From: a virus
Strand: one strand, 5' to 3'
DNA length: 64,000 bases
IMG/VR virus record: IMGVR_UViG_3300008952_000002
Location: 62,001-126,000 of that record
Part shown: piece by piece, positions 14,989 through 47,858 of the stretch
Layout: the number at the start of each line of letters is the position of its first letter
Numbering within the stretch: position 1 is the stretch's first letter
Program-made: the position numbers and the translations under genes
The notes under the pieces: generated by a model
Database searches by the model: none
What the model was told of the DNA's origin: nothing
Seen by the model: the letters and a program-made list of their open reading frames with translations, nothing else

Positions 14989-15089
14989 TGACTAAATAGT
15001 AATGCTTACTAATGGGTAGTAAGTTTATGGGGATTAACCTTCCTCGTAGCGGTTAAAACCCGCAACGGACTTCTAAAAGGAGAAATAAA

Positions 15090-15551
15090 ATGGGTAGACC
15101 ACTTAATAAAAGATACTTCGGTGTCGCGGGCGTAGGCCCAACAGCCGGCGGTAACGAAATCAAAGTTAACTTTAACAGCGGCGGCGGTGTTAAAGAAGGT
15201 TATATTGTTAAACAAAAAGCAAGTAAACGTTTTGTTGTTGAAGAAATCGAAACAGCAGGATTACATACTTGTACTTTAACTTGGGATGATTTACCAGCAA
15301 ACCTAGCATCAGGTGAGATGTCAATTTCATTTAAAATGGATGATGGTGAAACATACCTAGCAAGTAAAATTTCTGGCCGTACAGCAACATTAGCAGCTCC
15401 GACTGCTACAGGTTCAAACGCATATGATGGCAGTAAAGTTCCATGGAACTTCACAGTAGATCTAACAGACGGTGCGGCACAAGTCGAGGAAGCAGGCGAC
15501 GACAATACACTAGTCGGTGTAGACGACGACGATTGGACAGAAGACGCTTAA
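15090..15551 (+). CDS. Small virion-type protein downstream of gp23, function unknown
   Basis: 153 residues, MGRPLNKRYFGVAGVGPTAG at the start, beta-rich middle (WDDLPANLASGEMSISFKMD) and a very acidic end (DDDDWTEDA). Strong AAAAGGAG ribosome site. Genes beginning MGRPLNK-YFG are found near structural genes in marine T4-like phages, but I do not know a function. Flanked by terminators on both sides, so it is probably a separately controlled, abundant product such as a decoration protein (inference). Confidence 0.7.
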   Translation: MGRPLNKRYFGVAGVGPTAGGNEIKVNFNSGGGVKEGYIVKQKASKRFVVEEIETAGLHTCTLTWDDLPANLASGEMSISFKMDDGETYLASKISGRTATLAAPTATGSNAYDGSKVPWNFTVDLTDGAAQVEEAGDDNTLVGVDDDDWTEDA

Positions 15552-41879: not shown

Positions 41880-42314
41880 ATGGCAAAATATGCCCAAGGG
41901 AAATTCATTCCCAAAAATAATAAAAAATATGTAGGAAAAGGTTCACCAACTTATAGAAGTGGTTGGGAGTTTGCCTTTATGAAATTCTGTGACAACCACC
42001 CGTCAGTAACTGAATGGGCAAGCGAACCAATGAAGATTCCATATCGTAATCCTTTAACAGGCAGACAAACTGTTTATGTTCCAGATTTTTTAATCATATA
42101 CGAAGGCAAAAGCGGAAGACGCGCAGAATTAATAGAAATAAAACCCAAAAGCCAAACATTGAAAGAACGCGCCGGCCGTAGTAAATATAATCAAGCAAGT
42201 GTCGCAGTTAACCATGCAAAATGGGAAGCAGCCTATAAATGGTGTCAACGACAAGGCATACAATTTCGTATCGTAACAGAGGATGATATTTTTCATCAAG
42301 GCCGCAAACGCTAA
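41880..42314 (+). CDS. 4: Head completion protein gp4
   Basis: 144 residues. GWEFAFMKFCDNHPSVTEWA, EPMKIPYRNPLTGR, VPDFLI and ELIEIKPKSQ form the TnsA/PD-(D/E)XK-like pattern of T4 gp4 (gp50/65), which completes the head for tail joining. The nuclease-like residues E (WEF), D (PDF) and E-x-K (EIK) are all present. Length matches the family. Last of the head/tail genes before the radical SAM operon. Confidence 0.93.
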   Translation: MAKYAQGKFIPKNNKKYVGKGSPTYRSGWEFAFMKFCDNHPSVTEWASEPMKIPYRNPLTGRQTVYVPDFLIIYEGKSGRRAELIEIKPKSQTLKERAGRSKYNQASVAVNHAKWEAAYKWCQRQGIQFRIVTEDDIFHQGRKR

Positions 42315-42325
42315 TAAGTAATAGT

Positions 42326-43054
42326 GTGTCCTTCAATAGTTTTAAATATATTTTTGTCTGCTATCCACACGGCGGCGGCGGCGAATTTTTATCATACATT
42401 ATAAGCAAAGCAGAAGAATGTAATACATTAGTGCGACGAAAAGTTGGCAATCGTACAAAAGTACATGACATTTTTAATCAGCATATGCTTAGAATGGATT
42501 TTAGTATTGATCGTTGTTTTAATGATTACGGTGATAATGGCGATTTGACTGGAATAGATGACAGCAAGTATGTTGTAGTTCCTACACATTACAGGGAAGA
42601 TGCCGTAGGACAATATTTTAAGAATTATAAGTTTGTAAACATTTTATATCCGAGAACAGAAGAAGGCCACAAAAGAGTTTTGTGTAATATTAAAGATAAA
42701 GTTTGGATGCAGCCCCAACCTACTCAGTTGGAATTCTTTGGTATGCTTCAGCAATTGGAAAAGGATGTAGGCAATAGAGATTGGTTTGTTAATACACACT
42801 TTTCAATGAACACAATTGACATACTTCTAGCATCTCAAGGAAAAGAACTAACTGATGAGAATAGAGAACAACTTGAAAATGATTGGAATAATGATTTACA
42901 AACAAAGCATAAGAAAAAAGATAACAACTTGTGTATTGAATATGAAAATATTATTAATAGTTTAGAACAAATTGGAAAATACTTAGACATTACTATTACA
43001 GAAAAAATGCAAATAGAATTACAAGAAAAAATACAAAATGATGAAAAAATATGA
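42326..43054 (+). CDS. P-loop / sulfotransferase-like protein of the radical SAM operon
   Basis: 242 residues, GTG start at 42326. The N-terminus IFVCYPHGGGGEFLSYIISK looks like a nucleotide- or PAPS-binding loop, and VVPTHYREDAVGQYF resembles a sulfotransferase strand-loop. The rest is helical. The C-terminal end overlaps the radical SAM start by 17 nt, so it is coupled to the operon. Sulfotransferase identity is tentative. Confidence 0.45.
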   Translation: MSFNSFKYIFVCYPHGGGGEFLSYIISKAEECNTLVRRKVGNRTKVHDIFNQHMLRMDFSIDRCFNDYGDNGDLTGIDDSKYVVVPTHYREDAVGQYFKNYKFVNILYPRTEEGHKRVLCNIKDKVWMQPQPTQLEFFGMLQQLEKDVGNRDWFVNTHFSMNTIDILLASQGKELTDENREQLENDWNNDLQTKHKKKDNNLCIEYENIINSLEQIGKYLDITITEKMQIELQEKIQNDEKI

Positions 43055-43925
43055 TCTAAATTATATTGATATAATGGTACAGTATGCATGTAGTTTATCT
43101 TGCAAGGGTTGTATTACGTTGTCTAATTATGATCGTAAAGGACATGTTTCTTGGAAGGAGGGCGAACAATGGTTAAGGGAGTGGAGTCTACGCATTAAAC
43201 CAAAAGAAATCAATCTAATGGGAGGTGAACCACTACTAAACAAAGATTTCCAACAATGGTTATATGGCGTAAGGGAGTACTTTCCAAAATCTCGTATTAA
43301 GTTTATTACCAATGGATTCCATTATAAGTCTCGTCCGGCGTTATACCAATGGTGTAAAGAAGTTAATAATGTATTAATACAAACTAGTTTACACTATCGC
43401 CCTCCTCCTGAGAAATATATAGATAGTATTAAATTCTTTTTAAGTCAAACTGATTGGAAAATAGATGGCATACCGTTTGATCCGCCTGATAAACTTATTA
43501 AATTAATTGATAAGAATACTAATATTAAATGGCATATGAACTTGTTTGGAGAATTTAGGCGTCCGTTCATGGGAGAAGGTGCGAATATATATCCAGCAAA
43601 TAACGACAATTATATAGGAGCACATAGAGTATGTGGATCACCAAATTCTCCAACAATATATAAAAATAAATTATATAAATGCCCTGCAATTGCTAACCTA
43701 GAAGATACATTAAGAGTTTTTGGTAAAGAGAACGAAGAACAATGGGCACCATACTTAAATACTGGATTAGACTATAATAGCGATTTAGATAAGTTTATAG
43801 GAAATATATATAAACCAGATCCAGTAGCATGTAGAGCATGTAGCAGTAATTCGCAAGAGATTGAATATGATCATTATGCACTCGGAAATGTTATTACAAG
43901 GAAAGAATATAATAAAATAAAATGA
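43038..43925 (+). CDS. Radical SAM protein 1
   Basis: 295 residues; start ATGATG (43038 or 43041). CX3CX2C cluster site CSLSCKGC (Cys18, 22, 25) for the 4Fe-4S cluster, then the SAM-binding GGEPLLN (about 62-68). C-terminal cysteines (RVCGSPNSPT, YKCPAIANL, CRACSS) suggest a second auxiliary cluster (SPASM/Twitch type). Catalyses a radical modification of an unknown substrate. Overlaps its neighbours by 17 and 4 nt. Confidence 0.85.
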   Translation: MMKKYDLNYIDIMVQYACSLSCKGCITLSNYDRKGHVSWKEGEQWLREWSLRIKPKEINLMGGEPLLNKDFQQWLYGVREYFPKSRIKFITNGFHYKSRPALYQWCKEVNNVLIQTSLHYRPPPEKYIDSIKFFLSQTDWKIDGIPFDPPDKLIKLIDKNTNIKWHMNLFGEFRRPFMGEGANIYPANNDNYIGAHRVCGSPNSPTIYKNKLYKCPAIANLEDTLRVFGKENEEQWAPYLNTGLDYNSDLDKFIGNIYKPDPVACRACSSNSQEIEYDHYALGNVITRKEYNKIK

Positions 43926-44725
43926 GTAAATTAATCACAGCCGGCTGTGGTATTAGCCAGCGAGACTTTAAACATTATCCAATTTGGGTACACTTTCCCA
44001 CACTTACGCACAAATTAAAACACATTTCTATTGGCGGCCCAGCAGTGGGCAATGAGTATATTGGCCGCACTTGCAAAAAACATATATTAGAAAACTTAGA
44101 TGTTGAAGCAGTTATTATACAATGGACTAGTATTGGTAAACTTGATTTATTTGTAGAGAACGAAGAAATACTTTCTCAAATAAAAGACTTTAATTTACGA
44201 AATTTTATTGTCGATATGGATGCTAATGTCGTCGATGGAAGAGGTTTTTGGGCGAGCAGTAGCAGTGATGATAACGTAATTAAAGAAGTTTACAACGATG
44301 TTTTTAAATCTAATATATATGAGCACATGAAAGATCTAGAGCAAATATTAGATATACAAACATTGTGTGAGTTGCATGGAATTCCATATTATTTTTTCTT
44401 TGGCTATGCTTTTAATTTTGATTTTATAAAAGAGACACCTGAATTACAGCATTTATATTATAATATAAATTGGAATAAGTTTATAACGCCAAAACCAATA
44501 TATGAAATTTATAAAGAAAGTGAAGAGTTTGAATTAGACGTATTTGATAAAGATGCAAGATATATGTCACCCAACAGTGCGTTTCAAATTGATTTTTATG
44601 TTAAATATATAATACCAATATTAAATGACTATTTTACTACTATAAATTTTGATATCGAACGATTACAAAAACATAGCATTAAATTGGCACAAAATTTAAG
44701 AAAATTATATGGAAATATGGAATAA
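43922..44725 (+). CDS. SGNH-like protein
   Basis: 267 residues, ATGA overlap with the radical SAM gene. LITAGCGISQRDF (block I-like G-x-S), ISIGGPAVGNEYI (block II/III-like Gly and Asn) and VIIQWTS resemble the SGNH/GDSL hydrolase fold, though the catalytic His block is unclear. In marine phages such proteins lie beside radical SAM and methyltransferase genes. It might be an esterase, an acyl transferase or a degenerate fold member. Confidence 0.5.
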   Translation: MSKLITAGCGISQRDFKHYPIWVHFPTLTHKLKHISIGGPAVGNEYIGRTCKKHILENLDVEAVIIQWTSIGKLDLFVENEEILSQIKDFNLRNFIVDMDANVVDGRGFWASSSSDDNVIKEVYNDVFKSNIYEHMKDLEQILDIQTLCELHGIPYYFFFGYAFNFDFIKETPELQHLYYNINWNKFITPKPIYEIYKESEEFELDVFDKDARYMSPNSAFQIDFYVKYIIPILNDYFTTINFDIERLQKHSIKLAQNLRKLYGNME

Positions 44726-45662
44726 AATAACAATTGTTCATGTAGAGCCAACAACCAAATGTAATGCTAGTTGCCCAGGATGTCCGCGCAATAATAATGG
44801 ATATGGACTTAAAGACAATTTTGAATTAATTGATCTTGATCTAGATTTTTTTATTGATTTTGTTAATAAATGTAATATATTAAAAAATATTCATTTATGT
44901 GGAAATCGAGGAGACCCTGCAGCCTATAAGCATCTTAAAGATCTTTTAAGATTGGTATCATTCGATAACAGAGAATTTTTTGTTTCAATGCACACAAGCG
45001 GTAGTTTAAGATCTACGACTTGGTGGGCCGATTTAGGAAGTTATAAAAGCAATCAACTTGAAGTTACTTTCTCAATTGATGGACTAGAGGATACAAATCA
45101 TATCTATAGACAAGGCACAAATTTTAATAAAATAATAGATAATGCAAAGGCATATATCGACGCCGGCGGCCACGCGGTGTGGAAATTTTTAACGTTTAAA
45201 CATAACCAGCACCAAGTTGAAGAGGCAAGGGAATTGTCTCATAAATTAGGGTTTTCAGAATTTTATACAGAATTGCCCTATGTGCCAGAGGCATTTCATT
45301 GGAAAACTAATGAAAGATATTTATTAGAGTTTCCTGATGAAGATAATAATTCATATGACTCAGTAAAGACTCAAGTATTCGAAAACACAGCAATTTCAAA
45401 TGAAGTAGATAAAAAAGCCTATTTAGATAAGATTATTTCCAATAATTATGTCGATCCAAATGTTTGTGATCATTTACAGTGCTCTGACGATGATGAGCAT
45501 TATCAACTTTTTATAAGCGCAGATGGCGTAATTCATCCTTGCTGTTTTTGGGAAGATGAAAGAAAAGAAGTTTATGATATTGAAACTTTAAACATAGCAA
45601 AAGAATTTTCCCAAGGATTGTATCGAAAGACATGTTTAGAAGTATGCGGAGTGATTAAATAA
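44709..45662 (+). CDS. Radical SAM protein 2 (SPASM-like)
   Basis: 317 residues; start overlaps the SGNH-like gene by 17 nt. HVEPTTKCNASCPGC gives CX3CX2C at Cys18, 22 and 25. LCGNRGDPAAYKHL replaces the usual GGEP motif. SIDGLEDTNHIYRQGTNFNK matches the radical SAM/SPASM core. The C-terminal CDHLQC, HPCCFW and CLEVCG cysteines fit auxiliary clusters. Often such enzymes act on peptides. The two radical SAM proteins are distantly similar. Confidence 0.85.
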   Translation: MEIWNKITIVHVEPTTKCNASCPGCPRNNNGYGLKDNFELIDLDLDFFIDFVNKCNILKNIHLCGNRGDPAAYKHLKDLLRLVSFDNREFFVSMHTSGSLRSTTWWADLGSYKSNQLEVTFSIDGLEDTNHIYRQGTNFNKIIDNAKAYIDAGGHAVWKFLTFKHNQHQVEEARELSHKLGFSEFYTELPYVPEAFHWKTNERYLLEFPDEDNNSYDSVKTQVFENTAISNEVDKKAYLDKIISNNYVDPNVCDHLQCSDDDEHYQLFISADGVIHPCCFWEDERKEVYDIETLNIAKEFSQGLYRKTCLEVCGVIK

Positions 45663-45666
45663 CGTT

Positions 45667-46158
45667 ATGACAAAAAAACTAGAAGAACTTTTTGATTTAG
45701 CACAATCAGAGCAAGAAGAAGAGAAGCCCTCGGACTTTAAACCCGAAGAAGCAACAAAACTACAGTCAGTATTAAGCGATGTAGATAAAATTGATAGTGC
45801 ATTACCACTAGTTAGAGATTTAGAATCTAATGATAAAGAAATGGACAACATTGCTGAAAAGTCCATAACAACATTTAATGATCTAATGGATTTGGGCATG
45901 AATGTAGAAGCACGATACGCAGGTAAGATATTTGAAGTAGCAGGCACTATGATGAAGAACGCCATTGATGCTAAAGCCGCAAAAATTGATAAGAAATTGC
46001 GTATGGTTGAATTGCAAATTAAGAAGCAACGTGTAGATCAACAAGAAAGGGATGTTGGCGGACTAGAAATAGAAGCAGAAGCAACTATTGTAGCAGATCG
46101 CAACGAACTAATTAAGCAAATCCTAGATCAAAATAAAGACAGCAAAGATAAAAAATAG
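45667..46158 (+). CDS. 16: Terminase small subunit gp16
   Basis: 163 residues. Acidic N-terminus (LAQSEQEEEKPSDF), then NIAEKSITTFNDLMDLGMNV-EARYAGKIFEVAGTMM and a coiled coil (KIDKKLRMVELQIKKQRVDQ), the T4-like gp16 pattern. Recognises concatemeric DNA and recruits gp17. Starts 4 nt after the radical SAM operon and may be read from the same transcript. Confidence 0.9.
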   Translation: MTKKLEELFDLAQSEQEEEKPSDFKPEEATKLQSVLSDVDKIDSALPLVRDLESNDKEMDNIAEKSITTFNDLMDLGMNVEARYAGKIFEVAGTMMKNAIDAKAAKIDKKLRMVELQIKKQRVDQQERDVGGLEIEAEATIVADRNELIKQILDQNKDSKDKK

Positions 46159-46808: not shown

Positions 46809-47705
46809 ATGGAAACAAAATATAACCTAAATATTACAACATCTGGAGAGAACGGTGATAACGCAACAACATCAATTTCTACTACAGATGCAAACAAACT
46901 AGCAGAGTTGCTAAATTTAGCAGGCATGAGCCAATCTCATCCTGTAGCATTAAATGTAAGTCCTGAAGAAGAGTATGATGCTCCATGCCCAGACTGTGGT
47001 GATTCACCATGTGGTTGCGGTATGACAGAAGGCGAAAGTTGGGATAATGAGCCAGAAGCAACAGTTCATTCACCAGAAGAAGTTTTTAAAGTAGGTGACG
47101 ACTTGCATAGGGTAAAGAAAAGTTATCCTCCAGTAGCAGGCGGTGACAATCCAATGGCATTGGAATCTGCAGAAAATAAATTACGCAATGCGTATGACGA
47201 GTTTATTGCTGAAAGTGAAGAAGAAGCTGAGGAAGTTGAAGAGGCAATTAGAGTCAATTACCGCACAAAGAAAGAAGTTCCTCACCGTGCTAGAAAACCT
47301 TTAGAAAAAGAAGAGGTAGAAGAAGAAGTAGAAGAAGTTCATGAAACACCCGCTGGATGGGCCAAAAGTAAAGAAATAGATAACATGGAGTTTCCTACTA
47401 AAGGTGTAAAACCGGGTTGGAAAGAAGATGCAATCAAAGCCGCAATAAAAGTAGTACACGATATGGCAGGCGATTACGATGGTGCGTGGGCTGCAATTAA
47501 AGATGCTTATGGTGAAGATGTTTTAAATGATGATGCTGTACAAGATGCATTATATAAAGCAAATGTAGAAGAAGATGTTAATCGTATTAGACAACTAGCA
47601 GGTTTGGATGAAGCCGCAGGAAAACGGAAAAAGCCTGAAGAGGCAAAAAAAGCACCAGAAAAGAAAGACGACGGTAAAGGAAAAACCTGGGGTGTAGTAG
47701 CCTAA
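46809..47705 (+). CDS. Unknown structural-type protein with Cys-rich knuckle
   Basis: 298 residues. Begins METKYNLNITTSGENGDN; CPDCGDSPCGCG (about 59-70) is a zinc-knuckle candidate. ALESAENKLRNAYDEFIAES, a Glu-rich linker and EDAIKAAIKVVHDMAGDYDG follow, ending VNRIRQLAGLDEAAG. Found in this location in related marine phages; possibly a core or internal head protein. 1 nt separates it from the previous stop. Confidence 0.6.
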   Translation: METKYNLNITTSGENGDNATTSISTTDANKLAELLNLAGMSQSHPVALNVSPEEEYDAPCPDCGDSPCGCGMTEGESWDNEPEATVHSPEEVFKVGDDLHRVKKSYPPVAGGDNPMALESAENKLRNAYDEFIAESEEEAEEVEEAIRVNYRTKKEVPHRARKPLEKEEVEEEVEEVHETPAGWAKSKEIDNMEFPTKGVKPGWKEDAIKAAIKVVHDMAGDYDGAWAAIKDAYGEDVLNDDAVQDALYKANVEEDVNRIRQLAGLDEAAGKRKKPEEAKKAPEKKDDGKGKTWGVVA

Positions 47706-47858
47706 GTGCGTATTTCCGAACTACTTCTCGAAAAAGCACCTCCAGGTAGAGAGAAGTAAGTTAAGAAGTTAAAGAAAAAGATGTGCGGCGGGGATGACGA
47801 TTGTCCCGCCGCATACGCCATTGCTTGGTCACAGCATAACAAAAAGAAAAAGAAATAA
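47706..47858 (+). pseudogene. Small gene interrupted by an in-frame TAA
   Basis: GTG at 47706 (directly after the previous stop) encodes VRISELLLEKAPPGREK, then a TAA (47757-47759). The same frame continues VKKLKKKMCGGDDDCPAAYA then IAWSQHNKKKKK to a TAA at 47858. Before the stop the sequence looks like the N-terminus of small phage proteins of the ELL-EAPPGREKQVK type, and after it like their C-terminus. CAA to TAA would explain the break. It may be a dead gene, or two peptides, or a read-through product. Confidence 0.55.

Follow-up and report, generated by a model that had tools for sequence, protein, structure and literature searches.

A four-gene cassette with two predicted radical SAM enzymes, conserved between the head-closure and terminase genes of related T4-like phages

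Organization of the locus

The window analysed here, a stretch of 64,000 nucleotides, spans positions 62001-126000 of G000, a virus record of 201,690 nt, and contains, at window positions 42326-45662, a block of four genes, A to D, bordered by a head-closure gene and a small terminase subunit (TerS) gene (Table 1). A preliminary description of this DNA had reported successive overlaps of 17, 4 and 17 nt within the block, as well as its insertion between head-completion and terminase genes. Both observations were borne out: the open reading frame coordinates were exact as first given, 11 nt separate the head-closure gene from A and 4 nt separate D from TerS, and the large terminase (TerL) gene also lies downstream. 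The GC content of the four genes (26-36%) is near that of the adjoining genes (~27-41%), so that composition gives no mark of a recent foreign origin. Terminator-like and sigma-70-like sites occur in the region at a frequency near the shuffle expectation, and a search around the cassette for a T4-type late promoter (TATAAATA) gave none.

Table 1. Genes of the cassette and of its borders (window positions)
Feature	Position	Strand	Description
Head-closure protein (left neighbour)	41880-42314	+	phrog_218 (2.7e-44); TnsA-like endonuclease fold; left insertion border
Gene A	42326-43054	+	GTG start; 242 aa; orphan
Gene B	43038-43925	+	Predicted radical SAM enzyme; second ATG at 43041
Gene C	43922-44725	+	267 aa; orphan; weak DUF6071/SGNH-like relation
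Gene D	44709-45662	+	Predicted radical SAM protein; SPASM-like C-terminal Cys
TerS (right neighbour)	45667-46158	+	phrog_445 (5.5e-5); right insertion border

Radical SAM features of B and D

By cluster motif and core profile, B and D belong to the radical SAM superfamily. Both score above the Pfam Radical_SAM cut-off of 29.5 bits (37.4 bits for B, 32.3 bits for D), and both carry a CxxxCxxC motif at residues 18, 22 and 25, which reads CSLSCKGC in B (counted from 43038) and CNASCPGC in D. These cysteines, already pointed out in the preliminary description, are invariant in the seven to eight relatives aligned. At the SAM-binding motif, for which we took GGE(P) as the criterion, B has an invariant GGEP (residues 61-64), while in D an invariant CGNxGDP replaces it, with the variant CGYDGDP in the paralogue at G000 27249.

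Radical SAM enzymes with C-terminal auxiliary clusters use four cysteines for the single cluster of a Twitch domain and seven for the two clusters of a SPASM domain. Invariant C-terminal cysteines are present in B (C198, C214, C264 and C267, counted from the ATG at 43041), where their number and spacing are Twitch-like, and in D (C253, C278, C279, C309 and C313), which scores 16.2 bits against Pfam SPASM, under the cut-off of 21.5. Of the earlier description of both proteins as SPASM/Twitch-like, the C-terminal cysteines are thus conserved; as to type, B is Twitch-like by its cysteine pattern, and D can be called SPASM-like only below the family threshold. Neither protein is an ordinary member of N_Twi_rSAM (NF033640), a family with many full-length members in the same genome and clade, including one after TerS in some relatives: B and D reach 28-30 bits against a cut-off of 170, and their auxiliary cysteines are C-terminal rather than N-terminal.

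D is the fastest-evolving of the four genes and varies in length. It is duplicated in one haplotype (L094, L095, L098) and has paralogues in G000 at 151164 (E 2.7e-48) and 27249 (E 2.8e-25), while the genome-contig search with D returned only six distant relatives. Among annotated phage records, B and D gave weak matches alone. Among the nearest solved structures in sequence is that of the peptide epimerase YydG, with a match that spans only the common radical SAM core. Nucleotides are substrates of some radical SAM enzymes, and viperin and MoaA models match B weakly, below cut-off, as would fit a cassette whose product is of nucleotide or cofactor type and serves host takeover or counter-defence rather than surfaces. 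We nevertheless regard such a product as very unlikely, given that no nucleotide-specific motif or partner was seen and that the position in a structural operon suggests late, not early, expression.

Families of A and C

The N-terminus of A holds an invariant glycine-rich motif, CYPHG[GTA]GGEFLSYI. A had been labelled P-loop/sulfotransferase-like, which we assessed by the presence of a Walker A motif (GxxxxGK[ST]) or a match to a sulfotransferase profile. No Walker A was found, and searches of Pfam, PHROGs, NCBIfam and PDB sequences returned no family, so the label is unproven; annotated phage records gave no match either. Comparison with two proteins of the same genome, at G000 12055 (a weak Sulfotransfer_3 match) and 143109, did not support A as a P-loop protein. 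A relation to P-loop NTPases or sulfotransferases at the level of the fold is conceivable. The structure model of A, built from a seven-member alignment, was poor (pLDDT 39).

C shows a weak likeness to SGNH proteins. When its profile was compared with the 221 open reading frames of its own genome, three SGNH-like proteins ranked first to third after C itself (E 0.05-0.23, each alone not significant); DUF6071 matched weakly in three of the seven C members, with a best E of 0.045, and a QWTS block is common to C and the DUF6071/SGNH-like phage proteins at G000 14265 and 16328. Unlike those proteins, C lacks the two residues that we took as the criterion for an SGNH hydrolase, the catalytic serine of GDS(L) and the histidine of block V. 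In all seven members GDS aligns to GCG, which puts glycine at the serine position, although the alignment is approximate at this low identity; at the same low identity, and by our own placement of block V, MSP stands where a GHP-type histidine would be expected. C is therefore unlikely to be an ordinary SGNH hydrolase, and of its original description as SGNH-like the weak similarity survives whereas the active enzyme does not. The genome-contig search yielded no relative of C, and annotated phage records no match. A model from the seven-member alignment was poor (pLDDT 46), and a Foldseek search with it returned no PDB match.

The cassette as an inherited unit

We surveyed viral contigs related to the window by their large terminase. 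The order head closure-A-B-C-D-TerS is preserved at 17 loci, with head closure and TerS bordering the cassette in all 17, while at 28 loci the head-closure gene is directly followed by TerS (gap -41 to 16 nt) and at one a different gene lies between them. TerL identity to the window is at least 83% in carriers and at most 66% in relatives with an empty site. Carriers are monophyletic on the TerL tree (support 1.0), which suggests that the cassette probably entered once, in the ancestor of the carrier clade, and was then inherited vertically; the gene trees of A, B, C and D each show the same deep split. Across the 17 relatives, the four proteins are 42-100% identical, at a dN/dS of ~0.07-0.4.

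The cassette is under purifying selection. Over the pairs compared, Nei-Gojobori estimates of dN/dS lie at ~0.03-0.2 for A to C and 0.1-0.4 for D; against L084 they are ~0.14 (A), 0.09 (B), 0.08 (C) and 0.21 (D). Low dN/dS, coupled with an order kept intact in 17 relatives, argues for more than chance. Overlapping genes are common in phages, and the site after TerS has itself gained an N_Twi radical SAM gene and a gene for an unassigned 235-aa protein in some relatives, so that A to D might be pictured as a chance collection of unrelated cargo genes. That picture is already disfavoured by full co-occurrence at 17 loci, drawn from at least six haplotypes, and we consider it highly improbable: every carrier keeps all four genes in order, and the contigs with A but not B to D, or the reverse, were contig ends in the cases examined. 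Neither of the outcomes that the preliminary description had named as refuting it, cluster cysteines lost in homologues or genes unlinked in relatives, was observed.

The gains after TerS suggest that this region keeps acquiring such genes. N_Twi-type radical SAM genes lie after TerS at L088:6342-7568 (317.7 bits), L090:7256-8530, L093:7036-8247 and L094:5435-7340, and L094 has the extra 235-aa gene besides.

No precursor gene within the cassette

A pathway for a ribosomally synthesized and modified peptide (RiPP), such as an antimicrobial or one directed against competitors, could also use two radical SAM proteins whose C-termini are SPASM/Twitch-like; its precursor would be encoded elsewhere in the genome. 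Weak NCBIfam peptide-maturase matches point the same way, although all fall far below their cut-offs. As the preliminary description had noted, there is no obvious precursor gene: with flank gaps of 11 and 4 nt and the other junctions overlapping, none fits inside the cassette, and no gap above 26 nt was found inside it or at its borders in any relative aligned. The cassette also holds no peptidase or transporter gene. The only small conserved open reading frame seen nearby, of 50-59 aa before TerL, was considered as a precursor and rejected, being broken by an in-frame stop here and different in sequence in the cassette-bearing L090 and L093. We therefore find a RiPP quite doubtful. In the window this frame is a Lys-rich 50-aa sequence at ~47705-47857 with an in-frame TAA, and it is intact in the near-identical L080.

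Radical SAM and sugar genes elsewhere in the genome

The cassette belongs to a genome rich in radical SAM genes, with 14 Pfam Radical_SAM domains in its 201,690 nt and a CxxxCxxC motif in 16 open reading frames. Nine of these form a minus-strand array at 15-30 kb of G000, many of them N_Twi_rSAM, next to genes for a PIG-L deacetylase, a DegT aminotransferase, an NAD-dependent epimerase and a carbamoyltransferase and to SGNH/DUF6071 genes. The array adjoins very large open reading frames that could encode tail fibres, judging by size and position alone. In carriers, 77 Radical_SAM domains in 1.24 Mb amount to an approximate density of ~6.2 per 100 kb, taken over eight fragmentary records, some closely related, with three near-identical copies of this genome left aside; in the non-carrier relatives searched it is ~1.0 per 100 kb (10 in 1.02 Mb, 14 records). 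One carrier, IMGVR_UViG_3300025676_000713, has 19 such domains in 322,647 bases.

Distant homologues of D in other viral contigs likewise sit amid radical SAM genes, and the open reading frames around one gammaproteobacterial D-like gene resemble, in our reading, polysaccharide biosynthesis. In L039 and L044, D-like and N_Twi radical SAM genes lie beside or between homologues of G000 61923 and 62950. Such pairs next to other core genes suggest that genes of this kind may be cargo that inserts beside core genes, and the position of the cassette is thus by itself no proof of a role in the virion. Fe-S assembly does not track the cassette, since no more than 3 of 25 records gave a match to the Fe-S carrier family PF01521; the A-type Fe-S carrier-like gene of this genome scores 23.0 bits, below the cut-off of 26.3.

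Proposed role and comparison with known systems

A surface sugar and a peptide are the leading candidates for what the cassette modifies. Among the readings considered we tentatively favour one, possible rather than probable, in which A to D are expressed late and tailor a glycan or glycoconjugate of a surface. The phages concerned are presumably marine, to judge by the phages they resemble and by the places of sampling to which the contig names point. A single acquisition would have taken place in the ancestor of this clade of large T4-like phages; expression would be late, as suggested by its position alone, without gaps in a tail, head and packaging operon. B and D would be the radical SAM catalysts, both equipped with an auxiliary Fe-S domain at the C-terminus, and C, SGNH-like with its catalytic serine and histidine lost, might serve as a binding or scaffold subunit or perform an altered chemistry. 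A could be a transferase-like or carrier partner. The four proteins would act jointly on a sugar or glycoconjugate that decorates the virion or the envelope of the infected cell, possibly in the same pathway as the array of sugar-biosynthesis and radical SAM genes near the tail-fibre-sized genes.

What points to a glycan is this sugar and radical SAM cluster, together with the surroundings of D-like genes. Against it, the cassette neither contains nor adjoins a sugar gene, and the cluster is ~75 kb distant and largely on the opposite strand. Neither A nor C can be assigned an activity, and no late-promoter motif was seen. For radical SAM enzymes of the SPASM/Twitch type, peptides or proteins are substrates no less often than sugars, and YydG, even if matched only in the common core, is a peptide epimerase. 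The earlier suggestion of a pathway for a surface molecule or a peptide gains from the co-inheritance of the unit and from the surface-sugar-like radical SAM cluster, but a sulfotransferase in A and an active SGNH enzyme in C are not supported.

The same YydG match, the low dN/dS of A to C and a position fixed between head-closure and terminase genes throughout the clade could instead reflect post-translational modification of a protein of the virion or of the packaging machinery (capsid, tail or terminase), in which C-C, C-S or epimerised residues would be the products of B and D. Such a function would explain the fixed place of the cassette in the structural operon. We think it rather unlikely, since relatives with an empty site share the structural genes and manage without it, the position may mark a tolerated insertion, as for the D-like and N_Twi genes by core genes in L039 and L044, and the resemblance to YydG is confined to the common core. 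In a broader form, with A and C as partners (C as a changed SGNH-like scaffold) and either a packaging or head protein or a bound glycan as the target, late virion modification of an unusual chemical kind seems unlikely to us; if true, it would be a new late-stage modification system with two previously undescribed partner proteins.

Radical-SAM-rich T4-like phages from the sea are, as a general phenomenon, already known from two reports. One (Nishimura et al. 2017, PMC5332604) describes TARA_ERS488813_N000010, a T4-like marine viral genome of 183 kb in which 12 radical SAM genes occur along with an A-type Fe-S carrier. Our genome resembles it in its T4-like type, its large size, its dozen or so radical SAM genes and its A-type Fe-S carrier-like gene, weak here; the passages of that account found by term search give radical SAM counts and Fe-S logic only and contain no description of the A-B-C-D cassette or its site. 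The other describes pelagimyophage radical SAM gene cassettes in a host recognition cluster (mSystems 2020, PMC7029224). Cassettes gained by marine T4-like phages are common to both cases, but theirs lie near tail-fibre and LPS-type genes, while ours sits in the head and packaging operon with the orphan families A and C. In the papers searched we found no A-B-C-D cassette, with its pair of orphan families, at this site; set against them, an orphan cassette in a packaging operon is a new form of a known phenomenon.

We found in the literature no tested role for marine T4-like phages' radical SAM genes where these number a dozen or more. In this respect, phages that are otherwise syntenic, with the site occupied at 17 loci and empty at 28, provide clean presence/absence controls, and a cassette that is both compact and vertically inherited, with such controls, offers a good handle on what phage radical SAM enzymes modify.

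Other features of the genome

A phage tmRNA lies at L015:5815-6136 (G000 171815-172136), with the ARAGORN tag ANDDYYDYALAA and Rfam matches to tmRNA_permuted (121.8 bits) and alpha_tmRNA (83.7 bits); these family matches hint at an alphaproteobacterial host. By eye, an open reading frame at G000 170789 is ClpS-like. The genome also has a full-length elongation factor G gene with all EF-G domains (L016:7911-9977; G000 193911-195980). At window 15005-15092, the Rfam freshwater-2 cis-regulatory RNA (66.7 bits, E 7.5e-8) ends at the start of an open reading frame at 15090. Finally, seven proteins (G000 142532, 143782, 144312, 147322, 127627, 200629 and 30866) have similar short N-termini of roughly the type M[KR]xxE[LF]xxE, which resemble the sequences that target T4 internal head proteins to the capsid.
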